Source: a virus. From it: DNA of 24,817 nt. The DNA lies in the IMG/VR virus record IMGVR_UViG_3300023245_000105, positions 1 to 24,817 of that record; one strand, 5' to 3'. Of this stretch, positions 2,027 through 22,964 are shown one piece after another (position 1 is the first letter of the stretch; every line of letters begins with the position of its first letter). Both the position numbers and the translations under genes were made by a program. Below the pieces are notes generated by a model. It searched no databases. It worked only from the letters and a program-made list of their open reading frames with translations, and was not told the origin of the DNA.

Positions 2027-5000
2027 TTAATCTCTAGGAAGTTTAATCTCAATTGCTGCTATATCACCAGGAAGATTTGACAAAGTTGCATTAATCTGAT
2101 TTAATGTAAGCTGTAATGTTTTAAATAATTCTGCAGTTGAAGGTTCTGCAGTTGTAGAAGGTTCTACAACTGCTTCTTTAGCATTACCAAATCCTAGCGC
2201 TGTCTTAATGCTATCAATTGCTCCTCCACCACCCTGACTATTAAGTGTATCTTTTACATCCTCTATGGCTTCGACCATCGCCTCTAATGCTGCAAGATTC
2301 CTACCGCTTTCAGTCAATGATGCAGATGCTTCAAATAATCCCCTGAATGCTGCAGCTTTATCAATATCTACAGAGTTGATTGCTTCTGCTATTGCTTCAA
2401 AGCCATCTGCAGCTTTCATCAAACTACCATCTGCACCGACTTTAGCAAGAGATGTTACGAACCCAGCAAAGTTATTAACTCTTGTAGAAAATGTTGGCTT
2501 ATCGTAAAATAAAACAAATGTCCCAGACATGCTTTCTAATAGTGTCTTAATAGTTTCGGCGACTTTATCCGGTTTTTTTATGTTAGAAAAAGCTAATAGC
2601 CCATTAGCAATGTTAGTTAGTTCCTCTCCTGCGCCTTTAACTGCAGCTATGCCTTCTTCTACACTATCGTTATCCCATTTGAGACCTAACCAACCTTCAA
2701 CCTTTGCTCCACCTATAGTAGAAAAAGCACCCATAACAAGCCCTAAGGCGGATTCAATTTTCAGAGTAATTCCTCCAGGATCTTTCAAACCTTCAAATGC
2801 AGATAATGATGCAGCTATTTTAGTTAGTTCGTCGCCTGCACCCTTTACACTTCTAATACCTTCTTCTGTTTTAGTTGATTTAATACCAAGCAAAGAACTA
2901 AAAAATCCACCAGATTCAACATCTGTACCATCATCTGCAAGAGCGCCAAAAGCACTCATAACAGTACTAATGACTGTTTTGATTTTAGGAGCTAATAGTT
3001 CAATGTCAATTTTGCTATCTGCTAATTTTTGGAATTCAATCAAGCCTGTTGTTATACCAGTTAAAGCTTTACCTGTATCCATTACACTTCGTATGCCTTC
3101 TTCTACTGCGGTTGATTTAATCCCAAGCAAAGAACTAAAAAACCCACCAGACTCTACAGTTGCACCACCTTCACCAATTGCAGCAAAGGCAGTTCGTATA
3201 AATCCAAGTGTATTAGTAACATTATATGCGAGTGTTCCTGGCTCTGAGCCATCCTCCTTACCGAACTTAACACCACTATTTGCAAAATTATTAAAGTCAA
3301 CTAAACCCTTAGTGATATTTGTAAGTGCTTTGCCTGCACTCATTACAGAATCAATACCACGCTCTGTTGCGTTTGGGCTGAATGTACTACCGAAAATAGC
3401 ACCAAACACGCCGCCTGGGGAAGATGGCTCACCACCGGCATGTGCAAATGCGCTAGTAATTACACCTAATGTTTCTGTTAGTGCTATAGTATTCGTAGGA
3501 GTCCAATTTACTGCCGTAAACGATGTAAGCCCAACCGATAATTTACTAAGTGCCATTCCAGCTGCAGCGAAGCCAGCGGCAGAGGAAATCATCATTGGTC
3601 CCTTCACTGTACTTGATAGCGCACTACCTACGTTTTTAAAGAACCCATCCACACCTGTTGCGTTGCTATCTGTTCCTAAGAATGCTGCTTTAATGCCAGA
3701 TAAGGCTAATGTTAAATTCATAGAATCAGTTGGAGTGAATGCCACCTTTCTAATTGCATCTAAACCTGGTGCTAATAATAGTAGGGCACCACCGATAGTA
3801 GCGAATGCAACCGCACCAGGAATAATGAAAGCTACACCTAAACCAGCAGCAGCAAACTCTAATCCTAACATTAGTAAGATGGCACCTTGGGTAATAACCT
3901 CTGTTTCTCCAATATCTTTAGTAGCTTCCGCAAACGGAGTATATCCTAAACCGAATACGAATAAACCGATACCCATCAACCCTAATGCAAGAGCACCTAA
4001 TCCTATATATGACCAAGCCATACCCAATAATGCTGTTGCCAAACCTAACCCGAGCAATACCCCAACTTGATCAAAGACGGCACCATCCTTAAGGTCAGCA
4101 CTATGTATTGCTAATGCAAATATCGCATAGCCTATACCAAACGAGGCTAAACCAATGCCTAATAATGTTAGAGCTAGCGCGCCTTTCTTAACTTGTTTGC
4201 TTACTAATCCGATAAGAGCTACAGTTCCACTAATAAGTACTAAAGAAGCTACCATTCCAAGTAAAATCTTAGGTTCCATCATAATGAATAGGGTTGTAAG
4301 TGCAAACACAGCAAGTCCAATTCCAAACGATTTAAGTCCATCTCCTACTTTCTCTAAAGCCTTACCACCTTTGCCGATTTGCTTACTTCGGGTTCCAATT
4401 AAGTACATTACGCTTGACATGATGCCAATAGTAACGATCAGGAATGGTATTGCAATTAAGCCTGGAAGGATTAACAATGCTGAAATGGCAAGAGACTTAG
4501 AGAAATTCATGATACTATCACCCATAAGTATGAGGTTTTCAGCACCTTTTTTAATTTTCTTTTGATCGAATTCATCTAGCTTAGTAAATATGTCAACTAT
4601 AAATGATTGAAACTTTATAATTGACTTCTTTGGCACGAATGTAAATACCATAAGTGCCTTTGCCATTTGCATCGCACTTACACCTAGAAGCAATAATGCT
4701 TCCGCGCCAGCCTTCACTCCACCTTTACTTTTTGTTTTACCTTTTTTACTACTAAGTAAACCCTCATCCGTTTCTGTAGTACTTTCTTTTTTTCTATTCA
4801 TATACGCTAATCTAAACATACTTGTAGAAAGCAGTACCATCCTTGACAACTGCTTACCATGATTAGTAAGTTCAATAAGAATTGCACGATTTAATGATTC
4901 TGCTAAACTTGCAGCACCAGTAATTGTAGAAATTAACTGTTTTTGATGAGGCGTATCAACTGGCTTAGTACCAGATGGTTTTGTATTATTACTAGTTAGA

Positions 5001-11993: not shown

Positions 11994-13871
11994 CTAAACT
12001 AAATCATAAATATCATAATTAAGATTTTCATCTCTTAAGTCCCGCTCTAAGATATTTTCTATTTCTGCCTGGACTGCTTCATCGATAAAGTCATAAAGCT
12101 CTTCGACATACTCTGTGAAATCCACAGTATTTAAGAATTCAGAAGCATTAACTGCAGTCATAACTAAATCATCATTTCCGTTTTGTCCAGAATATCTGCC
12201 ATTTGCCATCTTCCCAAAGGTAGATGATTCTTTTACAGTATCTTTGTCATTAAGTATAATTCTATTTTGTGCTACACCTTTCTTAAAATTTTGACAGAAG
12301 ATTGGCTTATTATCACTTTTAACTTTAAGGCCATAAGATGAGGTCCTAGCATCAATACGATGTTTGAATTTTGTTACAGATTCCTCATCAAAGTCATTAC
12401 GCTGTGGGAAAACCGTTTCAAGTCTTTTCATTAATTCAGATCCAAATACATTCCACTCAATTAAGAGTTTTACATTCTCCTGGTTAAATACATCGCATAT
12501 TAATACATATAAAACCTTTGCAAAGTCGTCTATACTATGTTCATTGCTTCTGAATCTTCCAACTTGATAAAGCCCAAAGAAGTCTACCATACTACCTGGA
12601 GAAATTACTTTCTTCAAGTCCTTTAGTGCCATGCTATTTACTTGGAAGATATTAATGACAGAGTAATCTCCACCATTACCCTCGGCAATATCAATAGAAA
12701 ATAGCCAGTACTTACTATCTTCTCCGGCTTCATCTTCAATACTGAAATTAGGATGCCATTTTAAATCTGAGTATATTAGAGATTCATCATCAAGTTCTGG
12801 GATGTCTCTATGTACATATTCTATTTGGTTCTGTTGTAATCGCTTTAAGCTATCTGGGCTTAATAATAATGATGAGCTTGAGATGAACTGATTTCCATAC
12901 TGTCTGTTGAAAGCTTCTTCACTTCCAAGATTTTGAATTTCAGCCTCCATCCATTCATCATCTCTACCAGGAACATCCCACCAGTCTATTCTAAATGGTT
13001 TATATTCACTTAGGCCTTTCTCGGCTGCGGTGTATATTTCATAAAACTTATTGAACCCCCATGGAGTACTCGTTATAATTACTTTTGAATTCTTGGATGC
13101 TGATACCGTGGGATAAACGTTTTCATAGAAGACGTCAATAAATTGATGTGGAATATGAGCAAACTCATCCATGAATAATAAGTGAATCGTAAATCCAATC
13201 GCTGCCTTTTTAGTGGTTGTCTGACCGATAATTCTGCAGCCATTGTCAAACTTTGAATTAAATACATCGTATTTTAGAACTCCAGGCTTCATAAAGAACG
13301 GTAGATTCTCAAGTATAGTTTTACCCTTATCTAATATTTCTGTGGTAGTTGCACCTTTGTTCGATAAGATTAGTGCATTCTTATCAAAGTTAAATAATAT
13401 GTACCACGCTATAAAGATCGAGGAACAAATCGTGTTCGATGATAATATACCATTAGAATAAAAGCGATGATTATCATGATCAACCGTAACATCAAACATA
13501 CTTACTTTATGCAATGAGGTTTCAATGTTTGATATTCTACTTAATCCGTTGATAGTCTGTATTAAATCTCCAAGTTTTAAATCTTCTACAAAAACAATAT
13601 TGAAATTTATGTCAAAGACCTTATGCTTATCAGCACACTCTAAGGATAAACCATCATCTGTATCTATCTTCCATATTGTATATGGCTGAGTAATATGTAC
13701 ATGTGATAATGGCTCCCATCCAGTATCAGTCCAAACATTAATATTGTTTAATTCAATAGAGTTTAGTATTTTCTTTGAGACGTCATCTTGGTCAAGATCT
13801 ATATTACGATACTCTATAACTTCAATGAAACTTATTAATAGAAGAATGATATGTTTGAGAGTTTTAATCAT
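11994..13871 (-). CDS. Large terminase, C-terminal half with C-intein
   Basis: Of the 625 residues, 1-146 are a C-terminal split intein ending GILSSN, and 147-625 are the rest of the TerL ATPase and nuclease, starting TICSSIFIAWY. The extein shows the Walker B region LLFMDEFAH, the coupling motif TSTP, and the RNase H-like nuclease beginning WLFSIDIAEGNGGD. After trans-splicing with the N-half at GK|T, the 605-residue product nearly equals T4 gp17 (610). TerL pumps DNA into the prohead and cuts concatemers. Residues 1-33 are an unusual hydrophobic extension (LKHIILLLISFIEVIEY) before the intein fold. The start overlaps the N-half stop by 8 nt (ATGATTAA), which should couple their translation. 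Confidence 0.92.
   Translation of the reverse strand: MIKTLKHIILLLISFIEVIEYRNIDLDQDDVSKKILNSIELNNINVWTDTGWEPLSHVHITQPYTIWKIDTDDGLSLECADKHKVFDINFNIVFVEDLKLGDLIQTINGLSRISNIETSLHKVSMFDVTVDHDNHRFYSNGILSSNTICSSIFIAWYILFNFDKNALILSNKGATTTEILDKGKTILENLPFFMKPGVLKYDVFNSKFDNGCRIIGQTTTKKAAIGFTIHLLFMDEFAHIPHQFIDVFYENVYPTVSASKNSKVIITSTPWGFNKFYEIYTAAEKGLSEYKPFRIDWWDVPGRDDEWMEAEIQNLGSEEAFNRQYGNQFISSSSLLLSPDSLKRLQQNQIEYVHRDIPELDDESLIYSDLKWHPNFSIEDEAGEDSKYWLFSIDIAEGNGGDYSVINIFQVNSMALKDLKKVISPGSMVDFFGLYQVGRFRSNEHSIDDFAKVLYVLICDVFNQENVKLLIEWNVFGSELMKRLETVFPQRNDFDEESVTKFKHRIDARTSSYGLKVKSDNKPIFCQNFKKGVAQNRIILNDKDTVKESSTFGKMANGRYSGQNGNDDLVMTAVNASEFLNTVDFTEYVEELYDFIDEAVQAEIENILERDLRDENLNYDIYDLV
13434..13871 (-). other. 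TerL C-intein (146 residues)
   Basis: Recognisable parts are NVWTDTGWEP, YTIWKIDTDDGLSLECADKH (block B, with Ala where TxxH normally has Thr), DLKLGDLI, and DNHRFYSNGILSSN (blocks F and G). The final Asn is followed by Thr as the +1 nucleophile. The residue before the Asn is Ser, where most inteins have His. The break falls between blocks A and B, as in the AceL-TerL class of atypical split inteins. Confidence 0.85.
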
Positions 13872-13932
13872 TTAAAAACTTGATACATTTTTTTAATGTT
13901 TGTTTTGGATCTTTGTTCCAATCTAATTCCCA
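13864..13932 (-). pseudogene. Remnant of a homing endonuclease fused to the N-intein
   Basis: WELDWN and TLKKCIKFLN in the tail align without gaps to WEHEWN and ALEKCMNFLN at the end of the clamp-loader-associated endonuclease, with 11 of 21 positions identical and the stop codon at nearly the same place. The DNA also matches around the stop (AAGTTTTTAAATGATTAA versus AACTTTTTAAACTAA). The upstream boundary of the remnant is uncertain. Confidence 0.65.
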
Positions 13933-14460
13933 TTCATACAGCTTCCACAGAGAATATTTTGTTCTTTCTAAAAATGTAAGCTTTCGGTGAAGTTTTAATG
14001 ACTCAAAATAAAGTCTACCAAGTGTTGTTTTAATGGCGGTGCCATCTCTTAAAATTAGAACTTCAGTTGAATGTAAAAAACATTTCCCAACTTGCCGGCT
14101 GGCTAGGCAAACAGAAAACCGTTCTGCCGCAAACTGCCTCAGCATCTTCTCTTGGTAATCTCGAAGTTCTATCGTCATAAGACCGTTATCGGTCATTACA
14201 GTACAATAGTTATTAGCAAAATAAATTATGTCTTTTGCACATTTTTTAATTTCTGAAATCTCCATCTGGGTATATTCAAAAACAATGTTGCCTTTGCGCA
14301 AGTTTGGATTGCTGTCGTGAAATGGTGTAGACTTACTCTTGTACCCATCATCAATAGCAATCATAAGCTGCTCTACCTTTTTGGAGGTCCAAATATTGGA
14401 TTCTTGTTGCTTACTAACCTTTAGTTCAAATCCTGCCGGTTCTGCTTGTGGTTTAGCCAT
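13864..14460 (-). CDS. Large terminase, N-terminal half with N-intein
   Basis: Residues 1-126 are the N-extein. They contain the TerL lead-in (FANNYCTVMT...IELRDYQEKMLRQF) and the start of Walker A, ASRQVGK, which stops one residue before its Thr. Cys127 begins a class-1 N-intein block A (CFLHSTEVLILRDGTAIKTT). Residues 177-198 do not belong to an intein: WELDWNKDPKQTLKKCIKFL plus ND resembles the C-terminus of the homing endonuclease at 21539-22666. The product must associate with the downstream half and splice to make an active packaging motor. Start is the ATG at 14460; no Shine-Dalgarno site. The GroES-like gene ends 39 nt upstream. Confidence 0.9.
   Translation of the reverse strand: MAKPQAEPAGFELKVSKQQESNIWTSKKVEQLMIAIDDGYKSKSTPFHDSNPNLRKGNIVFEYTQMEISEIKKCAKDIIYFANNYCTVMTDNGLMTIELRDYQEKMLRQFAAERFSVCLASRQVGKCFLHSTEVLILRDGTAIKTTLGRLYFESLKLHRKLTFLERTKYSLWKLYEWELDWNKDPKQTLKKCIKFLND
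13867..14082 (-). other. TerL N-intein plus fused tail (72 residues)
   Basis: The N-intein starts with the catalytic Cys immediately after GK of Walker A. About 25-31 residues (to LGRLYFESL) are enough for block A, judged against the clamp-loader N-intein (30 residues). The remaining 40 or so are a tail with no intein block in it. Confidence 0.8.
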
Positions 14461-20368: not shown

Positions 20369-21532
20369 TCATCCTTCCTTTATTATAGTTTGCAAGGTGT
20401 AAATACACGCCAACATAGATATAACAGGGTCAATGACCTGTAGGCGTTGTGATTGGTATTTAGATACTGTAACAACTATCTGAGGAATTAATGGAATGGA
20501 CGATTGTCTTTCCTTCTTTATGAAGTCAATAAATTCCCCACCTAAAGATGATAGAATGTCATCACATCGGTTGGAATAGTTCGATACCATATACTCATAG
20601 CTTTTTACTGGGTCAGTCCCATCAATGACAAGATCATACACATCAGAGAATAGTGAACTGAACTTCTTAATATCTTCAACTGTTATAAGTTCTTTACCTT
20701 CTGACTTAAAGCCTTGAAGTGTATTTAGCATGTTACGAAGATCTGGGAATTTTCGTTTCACTAATTCTACTGCTGCGTATTTTTCTATTGTTATATCCTC
20801 AGCTTTACAAATTTCAAGTATTCTAACAATATAGCCTTTCATAATCTCAGTCTCCTCATCTTTACCAAAATCGAAGTCGATCATTTCAAATCTTGACTTA
20901 ATTGGATCAGGAACCTTATTGATGTAATTACACGTTGCTACGAATCTTGCATTCTTTGAGAACATATCCATAGTTGCTCGGAGTGCTTTGAAAAATTGGT
21001 CAGATACTCCGTCTATCTCATCTAATATAATTACTTTCATTTTTCCTGGCTTGTCCATAATACTTCGGTTAGCACAAAAGTCAGTAATTCTGTTTCTTAC
21101 TACATCAACACTAGTGTCAGTTGAAGCGTTGATGTACATATATGGATGTTCGAAGTGTTTCACTAGAGCCTTTGCGGCAGAAGTATTATGTGATAATATG
21201 CTGTCTGTATAATACCTATGATTTGTACCAGCAGGTAGCTCTAAATCATACATTTCCTCAGAAGTACCGTCCTTATAGATATCTTTAATGATAGATCTAC
21301 CTTCGCTTACCACTATGCAATCACCAACGTTCAAATTCTTTATGAAAATTTCATTGTAATTTTCATCAAACAAAATGTGATTATCTGCACCGCTTAGTTT
21401 AAGCCCATCTTCAGTAGTAATAGTCCATACTTCGTATGGTATAGTCTTATGCGAAGTTGCTATATCTTCCCAGCCGCTATCTGATAGTACTTGATAATCA
21501 TTAATTTTTTTACTCTCTATAAATTTTTTCAT
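20369..21532 (-). CDS. Clamp-loader large subunit, C-terminal half with C-intein
   Basis: Residues 1-116 are the C-intein and 117-387 the C-extein, beginning TSAAKALVKHFEHPYMYINAS. The extein shows Walker B (KVIILDEIDG), sensor 1 (FVATCNYINKVPDPIKSRFE, which includes the SRF arginine-finger motif) and the lid and collar of the AAA+ clamp loader. Joined to the 49-residue N-extein it gives 320 residues, almost exactly the size of T4 gp44 (319). Four gp44 and one gp62 open the sliding clamp using ATP. The unspliced half lacks the P-loop lysine and cannot bind ATP properly, so splicing is needed for function. It starts 6 nt after the endonuclease stop codon. Confidence 0.92.
   Translation of the reverse strand: MKKFIESKKINDYQVLSDSGWEDIATSHKTIPYEVWTITTEDGLKLSGADNHILFDENYNEIFIKNLNVGDCIVVSEGRSIIKDIYKDGTSEEMYDLELPAGTNHRYYTDSILSHNTSAAKALVKHFEHPYMYINASTDTSVDVVRNRITDFCANRSIMDKPGKMKVIILDEIDGVSDQFFKALRATMDMFSKNARFVATCNYINKVPDPIKSRFEMIDFDFGKDEETEIMKGYIVRILEICKAEDITIEKYAAVELVKRKFPDLRNMLNTLQGFKSEGKELITVEDIKKFSSLFSDVYDLVIDGTDPVKSYEYMVSNYSNRCDDILSSLGGEFIDFIKKERQSSIPLIPQIVVTVSKYQSQRLQVIDPVISMLACIYTLQTIIKEG
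21185..21532 (-). other. Clamp-loader C-intein (116 residues)
   Basis: Visible elements are QVLSDSGWED, YEVWTITTEDGLKLSGADNH (block B, Ala replacing the usual Thr), NLNVGDCIVV, MYDLELPAGTNHRYYTDSIL (block F) and SHN before the +1 Thr (block G). It aligns along its full length with the TerL C-intein, so the two share ancestry. Confidence 0.88.
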
Positions 21533-21538
21533 ATTATT

Positions 21539-22666
21539 TTAGTTTAAAAAGTTCATGCATTTCTCTAATGCTTCTGTTTTTGAGTCATTCCATTCGTGTT
21601 CCCATATTACAAGGACCTCATAACCTTTATCGTTAGCCAATTTAGCTTTTCTTTTGTCGTAATCCCATACTTCAGTTGCAGTTTTACCGCCTCTAATAAT
21701 GTCAGTTTCATTATACATGGTAGGATTACAGTGCCAATAATCTCCATTAAATTCTATGATCTTTCTCTTTTCTTTATGAGTAAAATCATAAGAACATTTA
21801 ATATCTCCTCCATTTATCCACCTTTCTTTTTTAGGAATGTCCATTTGCAATTCATTACAAATAGATTCTATCATGGAAGAAGCAAACTGACTTGACGGTG
21901 AACGTCCATCTCCATAGTTTTCAAAATTCTTTTGTAATGCGATTTTCCATTTTCTTTGCCGTTCTTCAAAAATTTTAGTACCTTCTACTTCACCGTGTTG
22001 TTTGATGCATTTCTCTAAAGTGAAAGTAGCTTGTCTTTCTTTTACTAATGCTTTAGCCTCAGTTTCAGTGTGTCCTAATTTCATCCAGTATTTAAACTGC
22101 GTAGTACTCATGGCATCATATTTTTCTGGATTTGCTTTACGTTTATCTGCAAATGCTTTACCTGCTTTGCTTTGGTGCTTCTTCACAGCAGCTGTGGCTT
22201 CATCTATAGAATGACCTCGCTTCAACCAAAAATCAACATTATTTGGCAGAAGTCGCATATTATAAATCTCCTCCTCTGAGAACCCACGTGCTAGTAGATT
22301 TTCTTTCGTCCCTTTAAAATGGTTTTTGACTTGTTTTGCAATACCAGATTGGACAATGGACATTTGCTTATACCCATCTTCTTCAGAATAACCTCGCTTC
22401 AACCAATAATGAATTGAATTTGGTCTGTTATACTTAAAGTTTAACTTCATAGCTGCGATATAGCTTTCAACTAATGCGGGTGGTAAAAACGCATTAAATC
22501 TATCTATGCGTTTAACTTCAGGTTTATTAGTAACACAATTATCATTAATACAGTCGATAATAGTATTTCTACTATATCCTCTCTTTATCTGGAGTTCGGC
22601 CTTACATAAGTTACACTTGGGTGTAATGTCTGAAGTAAATGTCTTTGCTTTGTAAAAGTATTTCAT
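21539..22666 (-). CDS. Vsr-like (EDxHD-type) homing endonuclease between split-intein halves
   Basis: The 375-residue protein has three parts. Residues 18-44 carry a C-x2-C...C-x4-C putative zinc site. Residues about 87-204 hold four copies of a YWLKRGxSEEEA-type module (87, 124, 146, 193), probably DNA-binding. Residues about 265-375 form a Vsr-like nuclease with SYDF, KIIEFNGDYWHCNP, VWDYDKRKAKLA and VLVIWEHEW. This matches the endonuclease family described with fractured split-intein genes and the phage enzyme I-Bth0305I. It would cut clamp-loader alleles lacking the insertion and so spread itself. A late-type promoter abuts its ATG. The neighbouring halves must splice in trans because of it. 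Confidence 0.85.
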   Translation of the reverse strand: MKYFYKAKTFTSDITPKCNLCKAELQIKRGYSRNTIIDCINDNCVTNKPEVKRIDRFNAFLPPALVESYIAAMKLNFKYNRPNSIHYWLKRGYSEEDGYKQMSIVQSGIAKQVKNHFKGTKENLLARGFSEEEIYNMRLLPNNVDFWLKRGHSIDEATAAVKKHQSKAGKAFADKRKANPEKYDAMSTTQFKYWMKLGHTETEAKALVKERQATFTLEKCIKQHGEVEGTKIFEERQRKWKIALQKNFENYGDGRSPSSQFASSMIESICNELQMDIPKKERWINGGDIKCSYDFTHKEKRKIIEFNGDYWHCNPTMYNETDIIRGGKTATEVWDYDKRKAKLANDKGYEVLVIWEHEWNDSKTEALEKCMNFLN

Positions 22667-22673
22667 ATGTTTT

Positions 22674-22686
22674 GTTTTATATATTC
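22674..22686 (-). promoter_or_regulatory. Late-type promoter of the homing endonuclease
   Basis: The minus strand reads GAATATATAAAAC, two mismatches from the late box. T4 spacing puts the start near 22668, two bases before the ATG, so the message would be nearly leaderless. It lets the endonuclease, and possibly the C-half, be transcribed separately from the N-half. Confidence 0.5.
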
Positions 22687-22724
22687 AAAACTTCTAATGT
22701 TTTATGGGAAGCCGGGATATTGGC

Positions 22725-22964
22725 CTAAAGCATAGTATGAAAATCCCTAATAGACATTGTTTCAATCTTACCTGTGATTTTGTTTTTTACTTCTATTAGA
22801 CTATCGCCAATGACACATTTCCCTGTTCCTGGACTTCCATGGAGCAATAGATGCTGATATACACCCTGCTCAAGTTTAGCTCTTACTCTTTTTGGAGTAA
22901 CGAGATCATTTATATTTTGTGGGCGGTATTTTTCTGTTAGTAATAAGTTTTCTATGTTCTTCAT
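22725..22964 (-). CDS. Clamp-loader large subunit, N-terminal half with N-intein
   Basis: From the ATG at 22964 the 79-residue product has 49 residues of N-extein: the AAA+ lead-in LLLTEKYRPQNINDLVTP (compare T4 gp44 EQKYRPSTIDE) and Walker A HGSPGTGK, cut off before its Thr. Residues 50-79 are the N-intein, starting CVIGDSLIEVKNKITGKIET and ending at a stop. I prefer this ATG to the upstream TTG at 22982 because it begins where the gp44 family begins. The stop is 58 nt before the endonuclease start. Product and C-half must meet and splice in trans. Confidence 0.9.
   Translation of the reverse strand: MKNIENLLLTEKYRPQNINDLVTPKRVRAKLEQGVYQHLLLHGSPGTGKCVIGDSLIEVKNKITGKIETMSIRDFHTML
22728..22817 (-). 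other. Clamp-loader N-intein (30 residues)
   Basis: It begins with the nucleophile Cys directly after GTGK and contains block A only. Block B lies in the other half, 1.2 kb away. Thirty residues is far shorter than usual split N-inteins (about 90-120) but close to AceL-TerL (25). Confidence 0.85.

Follow-up and report, generated by a model that had tools for sequence, protein, structure and literature searches.

We analyzed the gene for the terminase large subunit (TerL) in a 24,817-nucleotide (nt) stretch of viral DNA, positions 1 to 24,817 of IMG/VR record IMGVR_UViG_3300023245_000105 (the whole stretch is called the window below), and compared it with homologous loci in other contigs, which we refer to by L numbers. 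The product is a T4-type terminase large subunit (gp17), recognized by its ATPase domain (Terminase_6N, PF03237; Pfam E 1.4e-11), and it is encoded by two genes that overlap by 8 nt. An earlier note on the window had placed two TerL halves here with an overlap at 13864-13871, and both the coordinates and the overlap were borne out. The locus consists of the following features:

14460-13864, minus strand: TerL N-half gene, 198 amino acids (aa).
13871-11994, minus strand: TerL C-half gene, 625 aa.
14083..14460, minus strand: TerL N-extein, 126 aa, with the Walker A motif up to GK (...ASRQVGK), from the translation; the intein-free locus L008 reads ...ASRQVGK-TICSS in one frame.
13930..14082, minus strand: N-intein segment, 51 aa from Cys1 (CFLHSTEV...KLYEW), 92% identical to that of L007 and 57-69% to those of L009, L010, L011 and L013.
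13929..13930, minus strand: deletion junction, where the DNA alignment with L007 shows a loss of about 1058 bp.
13867..13929, minus strand: fossil tail ELDWNKDPKQTLKKCIKFLND, the last 21 codons of a deleted, putatively Vsr-like endonuclease in the N-half frame, assigned by its match to the closing codons of the endonuclease in L007.
13864..13871, minus strand: 8-nt overlap ATGATTAA of the N-half stop (formerly the endonuclease stop) and the C-half start, the same as at intact loci.
13434..13871, minus strand: C-half residues 1-146, a helical linker (about 1-33) followed by the C-intein (block B ADKH, block F, ending ...YSNGILSSN), from the alignment; Pfam Intein_splicing is below its cut-off.
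11994..13433, minus strand: TerL C-extein, 479 aa plus stop, starting T(+1)ICSS, with Pfam Terminase_6N and 92% identity to L007.

The intein is inserted inside Walker A, between GK and T, a position defined by the intein-free allele L008, in which the exteins are joined in one frame and differ from those of the window at 3 of 1567 nt. Recomputing the extein lengths as 126 + 479 gave the 605 aa named in the earlier note. The residues expected of a class 1 intein are present (Cys1, block B ADKH, Asn146 and Thr+1), and the split falls between block A on the N-half and block B on the C-half, which also carries blocks F and G; this is the atypical arrangement of a short N-intein and a long C-intein. 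A profile of the C-intein matched CatC (E 8e-9), gp41-1 and VidaL (E 2.5e-7). The same junction allele was found in contig L006 (0 differences in 2251 nt) and in contig 3300022874_000107 (1 difference in 1153 nt), and the recurrence of the two-frame layout in two further contigs makes an assembly frameshift unlikely.

Fractured genes, reportedly described by Dassa and colleagues in 2009 (NAR 37:2560), combine split inteins with Vsr-like (EDxHD) homing endonucleases. The window TerL is split as such genes are, each half carrying one intein part, but no free-standing endonuclease lies between the halves, where only its last 21 codons are left. As judged from the sequence, the window TerL is thus derived from a fractured-gene locus with an endonuclease, although it is an incomplete example of one.

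The evidence for the lost gene comes from contig L007 (IMGVR 3300035698_007080), whose metagenome is from Ace Lake, Antarctica (PMC8542988). It contains the same TerL locus, with the C-half extein and the N-intein each 92% identical to the window, but its TerL halves are separated by a complete endonuclease of 359 codons whose stop overlaps the C-half start by 8 nt. The end of this endonuclease matches the window tail at 21 of 21 aa and 60 of 63 nt and has the same stop; the three differences are all synonymous. The DNA alignment of the two contigs is unbroken to ...TATGAATG(G), is interrupted by a single gap of about 1058 bp and restarts at GGAATTAGATTGG.... A profile of the endonuclease tail also recovered the window tail in a search of about 300 sequences (E 9e-11). 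The junction has 1 nt of microhomology on the L007 sequence; it would have 3 nt (TGG) if the lost gene carried the Trp codon of the WE.DW motif, as is usual among relatives in the endonuclease alignment. Intact endonucleases between the TerL halves were also found in L010, L011, L013 and L015. The alignment with L007 confirms that the split-intein terminase of the window retains a fossil of its lost endonuclease.

The central proposal of the earlier note, that an endonuclease formerly lay between the halves and was deleted, is upheld by the intact gene with identical last codons at the same locus in L007. The deletion had been called in frame, which holds in so far as the N-half now reads on in the frame of the endonuclease; L007, however, has these two genes in different frames, so the deletion size of about 1058 bp is no multiple of 3 and two frames were fused. 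The deletion was also thought to have created the 8-nt overlap, which did not stand: the overlap between the endonuclease stop and the C-half start is already present in the intact loci L007, L010, L011 and L013. We therefore rejected the overlap as a product of the deletion and consider it inherited from the intact state.

An alternative offered by the same note was a contiguous intein broken by a frameshift; we considered it as a recent frameshift within the overlap, the tail being ordinary intein linker. Fused inteins of the family do exist at the same site (L009, L181, L242 and L272), with N- and C-segments that adjoin in the order seen in the window. In L009, however, the segments join directly (KLYEY-TVKHIILF) with nothing tail-like between them, the tail corresponds to the last part of an endonuclease in L007 and is not intein sequence, and the C-half start and the overlap are identical at intact split loci. 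Moreover, one continuous frame across 13864-13871 was seen in no contig, and the two further contigs with the junction allele have the same two frames. L007 and these two contigs rule the frameshift out, and we assign it the smallest probability among the alternatives, close to nil.

The fused intein of L009 also gave a structural context for the tail. Its predicted model is of high confidence (pLDDT 94.9, pTM 0.88), and the top matches in the Protein Data Bank (PDB) are inteins, VidaL first (Foldseek E 7.8e-10) and Cat also among them. Helices 37-49 and 54-68 of the model flank the join of the N- and C-segments, which is the position of the endonuclease in the split relatives. By analogy with this model, the 21-residue tail would sit at the tip of a helical hairpin, outside the intein core.

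A second possible source for the tail lies in another fractured gene of the window, a gp44-type clamp loader (20369-22964), whose intein likewise follows the GK of Walker A:

22725..22964, minus strand: gp44-type clamp loader N-half with N-intein (GSPGTGK|CVIG..., Walker A), from the translation.
21539..22666, minus strand: intact Vsr-like endonuclease between the gp44 halves, which aligns with the TerL-locus endonucleases; Pfam MTES_1575/DUF559 matches are weak.
20369..21532, minus strand: gp44 clamp loader C-half with C-intein, with Pfam Gp44_lid and AAA; the C-intein is 40% identical to that of TerL.

The earlier note had drawn attention to the likeness between the tail and the end of this endonuclease. 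The similarity is real, as none of 200,000 shuffles of the tail reached the observed score (the best had 8 matches), though we counted 10 identical positions of 21 and not 11. In principle, the tail could have been brought in by recombination with a different endonuclease gene, for example that of the gp44 locus, and segment exchange is hinted at by the near-identical middle of the L007 TerL endonuclease (2929-4008) and the window gp44 endonuclease, where 77 of 89 residues agree, against 25 of 147 in the N-terminal parts. From this pattern, the TerL- and gp44-locus endonuclease genes seem to exchange segments. Nevertheless, the tail matches the TerL-locus endonuclease at 21 of 21 positions and the gp44 one at only 10, and the identity with L007 runs unbroken from the tail into the C-half. 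We rejected the gp44-locus endonuclease as the source, the two having only the family in common, and consider acquisition of the tail by recombination very unlikely.

A sequence search of solved structures with the endonuclease returned nothing relevant, and Pfam MTES_1575 was matched weakly in six of seven endonuclease relatives (best E 2.5e-5); we therefore used a fold search. The model of the L007 endonuclease is of low confidence (pLDDT 62), and with it the three highest-ranking matches were 3r3p (I-Bth0305I), 1vsr and 1cw0 (both Vsr), with E values of 0.018-0.27. The fold and Pfam matches both point, short of proof, to a putative Vsr-like PD-(D/E)XK domain at the C-terminus.

To place the window among its relatives, we ran profile searches for homologous inteins at the matching position in TerL, which yielded about 100 clusters of loci. 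The window C-intein as a lone query found only three loci, and the wider set needed alignment-based profiles. We assigned the locus states ourselves, and the loci are related to each other. An essentially full endonuclease was present at 66 loci, whereas 15 split loci, including a case of frameshift in L180, contained a stub or a degenerate endonuclease and four had no recognizable remnant. Other inserts or an unclear layout were found at ten loci, six loci were truncated and six inteins were contiguous, two of the latter from isolate phages. Endonuclease presence or absence changed at least 20 times on a tree of the C-exteins (built with a quick method, with some weak branches and L206 left out), indicating that endonuclease losses were repeated.

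Using a 42-column profile of the endonuclease end, we found stubs adjoining the C-half start in the window and in L165, L167, L175, L182, L183, L188, L200, L206, L208, L223, L238, L247 and L253, the match in L253 being weak (E 0.009). The stubs keep from 9 to about 103 codons. Three loci (L182, L183 and L247) also retain the front part of the endonuclease, and none of the 14 has a front-part remnant alone. The same search found no stub in the four fused metagenome inteins L009, L181, L242 and L272. With the loci related and their states assigned by us, the contrast of 14 of 18 split loci lacking the endonuclease against 0 of 4 fused inteins gave a Fisher p of 0.0096. A second, independent deletion could be followed directly in L223: relative to intact L215, with 90-91% nt identity on both sides, it is missing 1064 bp. 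The junction has GGAA microhomology and, by our reading of the frame, the N-half again continues in frame into the last part of the endonuclease (...DRNADPN), where a stop codon was later gained.

A feature shared by most of the loci may explain the bias. In 57 of the 73 scored loci the endonuclease gene ends within an overlap of 1-28 nt with the start of the C-half, so the signals for C-half initiation would have to lie within the last endonuclease codons, acting by position or by termination coupling; in our reading, the sequence before the C-half start is A/T-rich and has no clear Shine-Dalgarno element. Deletions that spare the C-half start region would survive, whereas fused inteins need no start there and would lose the stub. 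Strict coupling, in which the N-half stop has to touch the C-half start, is not supported by L223. The pattern across the approximately 100 loci slightly favors the view that the tail persists because the endonuclease end contains the C-half translation start region. The more general proposal, that the end of an invading endonuclease gene became the translation start region of the downstream host half and acts as a ratchet fixing the gene splitting, has in our judgment an even chance of being right.

The tail could instead be functional as a protein, for instance by aiding the association of the halves, and be kept by selection, which is compatible with its origin by deletion. All three tail differences from L007 being synonymous fits this idea, as does the persistence of stubs at many loci. 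However, the deletion may be young, so that the synonymous pattern may go back to the time when the gene was whole. Moreover, the N-half and the stub are separate in L167, L208 and L253, and a stop cuts the stub off in L223, which indicates that the tail peptide is not generally needed, and retention of the DNA accounts for all cases. A protein function for the tail is in our view unlikely.

We consider it highly probable that, as a whole, the locus is a fractured TerL that lost its homing endonuclease by deletion and whose halves are expected to trans-splice. The ancestral state is the one seen in L007, with three overlapping genes for the N-extein and N-intein, the Vsr-like endonuclease, and the C-intein and C-extein. 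As the alignment shows, a deletion of about 1.06 kb, with little or no microhomology, joined the 3' end of the N-half to an endonuclease codon of the conserved WE.DW motif. This left the N-half to end in 21 endonuclease residues and to borrow the endonuclease stop, with its overlap into the start of the C-half. The halves would then associate and the intein would splice in trans, giving a 605-aa TerL with a restored Walker A; this outcome is likely because the gene is essential, its intein motifs are kept and the family is close. In the predicted model of the fused homologue, the place of the tail is the tip of the helical hairpin, so that it would point away from the intein core. It would probably be kept because the endonuclease gene end holds the C-half translation start region and deletions reaching it would be lethal.

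Several observations weigh against this account. The penultimate intein residue, usually though not universally His in class 1 inteins, is Ser in the window and His in 103 of 107 loci, a change that could slow C-terminal cleavage. The C-intein core (C-half residues 31-146, window 13434-13781) is only 45% identical to L007, whereas the flanks are about 90% identical, indicating that the core was replaced in one lineage, and it appears to have been swapped as a module; that the exchanged core still fits the N-intein is an assumption. The account of stub retention by translation start is correlative, L223 shows that the N-half can end elsewhere than at the start of the C-half, and at four split loci no stub is recognizable. 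Elsewhere in the family, L009 and L013 are 80% identical in the C-intein core and 70% in the exteins.

The loss of the penultimate His also fits a locus in decay, with halves that no longer splice and a population surviving through intein-free genomes. The intein-free L008 is nearly identical otherwise, and contig 3300025736_000288 (L088) of the same phage ends, at position 4378, exactly at the intein insertion site, suggesting that both alleles coexist. From these two contigs, intein presence appears to vary within the population. However, TerL is essential and both halves are open frames, and three contigs carry the allele with almost no differences; decay of the locus is thus improbable, about as much so as a protein function for the tail, and we retain the fractured TerL with trans-splicing halves as the preferred reading.

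The locus resembles several known systems. The fractured genes of 2009 are reported to be essential phage genes that a split intein interrupts, each with a separate gene for a Vsr-like endonuclease lying between its two parts. The window gp44 and the TerL of relatives have this full form, whereas the endonuclease of the window TerL is reduced to 21 codons fused to the N-half. AceL-TerL, which comes from a saline lake in Antarctica, GOS-TerL and the engineered Cat intein (PMC11766414; PDB 6dsl) are similar in being TerL inteins with an early split, a short N-intein and a long C-intein, a likeness drawn irrespective of the insertion site. They differ in N-segment length, 25 and 37 aa (PMC11766414) against 51 aa plus the 21-aa endonuclease tail in the window, and the window family adds the helical hairpin at the split. 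VidaL (PDB 6vgv), the best fold match of the fused L009 intein, has 18% identity and 145 residues, in contrast to 194 in L009. In Ackermannviridae (Klebsiella phage Magnus and Vibrio phage BX-1), contiguous inteins occupy the corresponding TerL site and have a homologous C-intein with about 37% identity, but they lie in one continuous gene, no endonuclease was found in them by profile and the helical linker is unmatched. For the endonuclease itself, the likeness to I-Bth0305I and Vsr (PDB 3r3p and 1vsr) is weak (E 0.018 and 0.05), comes from a low-confidence model and covers about 100-120 of 359 residues. The fractured-gene work of Dassa et al. 2009 is cited in PMC10448857 and PMC12350094. We did not find the stub pattern described in the literature searched; this pattern and the fossil appear to be new, while the kind of locus, fractured genes and atypically split TerL inteins, is known.

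Other arrangements were seen among the homologous loci. In L279 (2798-5644; IMGVR 3300022602_000075), and also in L280 and L278, TerL and the intein form one open frame of 949 codons, within which a second frame encodes a complete Vsr-like endonuclease (about 281 codons, 3162-4007). When this endonuclease was resampled synonymously, the TerL frame acquired 15.8 stops on average and none of 20,000 sequences was stop-free, whereas 0 stops are observed, and the region looks like genuine dual coding. The related L384 and L383 are contiguous inteins keeping only the front of an L279-type endonuclease. In L232 an unrelated open reading frame (2098-3102), by eye similar to GIY-YIG-type endonucleases, lies between the TerL halves, and L184, L202, L217 and L220 have a long stretch there with no plus-strand endonuclease and perhaps an opposite-strand open reading frame. 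In L003 (LR756501.1 605430-615451), from a 735-kb phage, a gene that by eye is radical-SAM-like lies directly upstream of a TerL C-half with C-intein; no TerL N-half was found within 4 kb of the C-half, and the halves may be unlinked.

One orthologous site shows together the empty state (L008), the split intein with endonuclease (L007), the split intein with the fossil (the window) and the fused intein (L009). The origin of endonuclease-free split inteins, and the return of a split gene to one piece, are hard to see in finished examples. The window also provides a natural intein of the atypically split type used in protein engineering, and its close relatives allow comparison. If the ratchet is true, loss of the stub would kill the host gene, split inteins that lost the endonuclease would therefore carry a recognizable stub, and fusion into a contiguous intein would be the main clean way out. 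The stub pattern suggests a specific, testable reason for the splitting of a gene to outlast the selfish gene.
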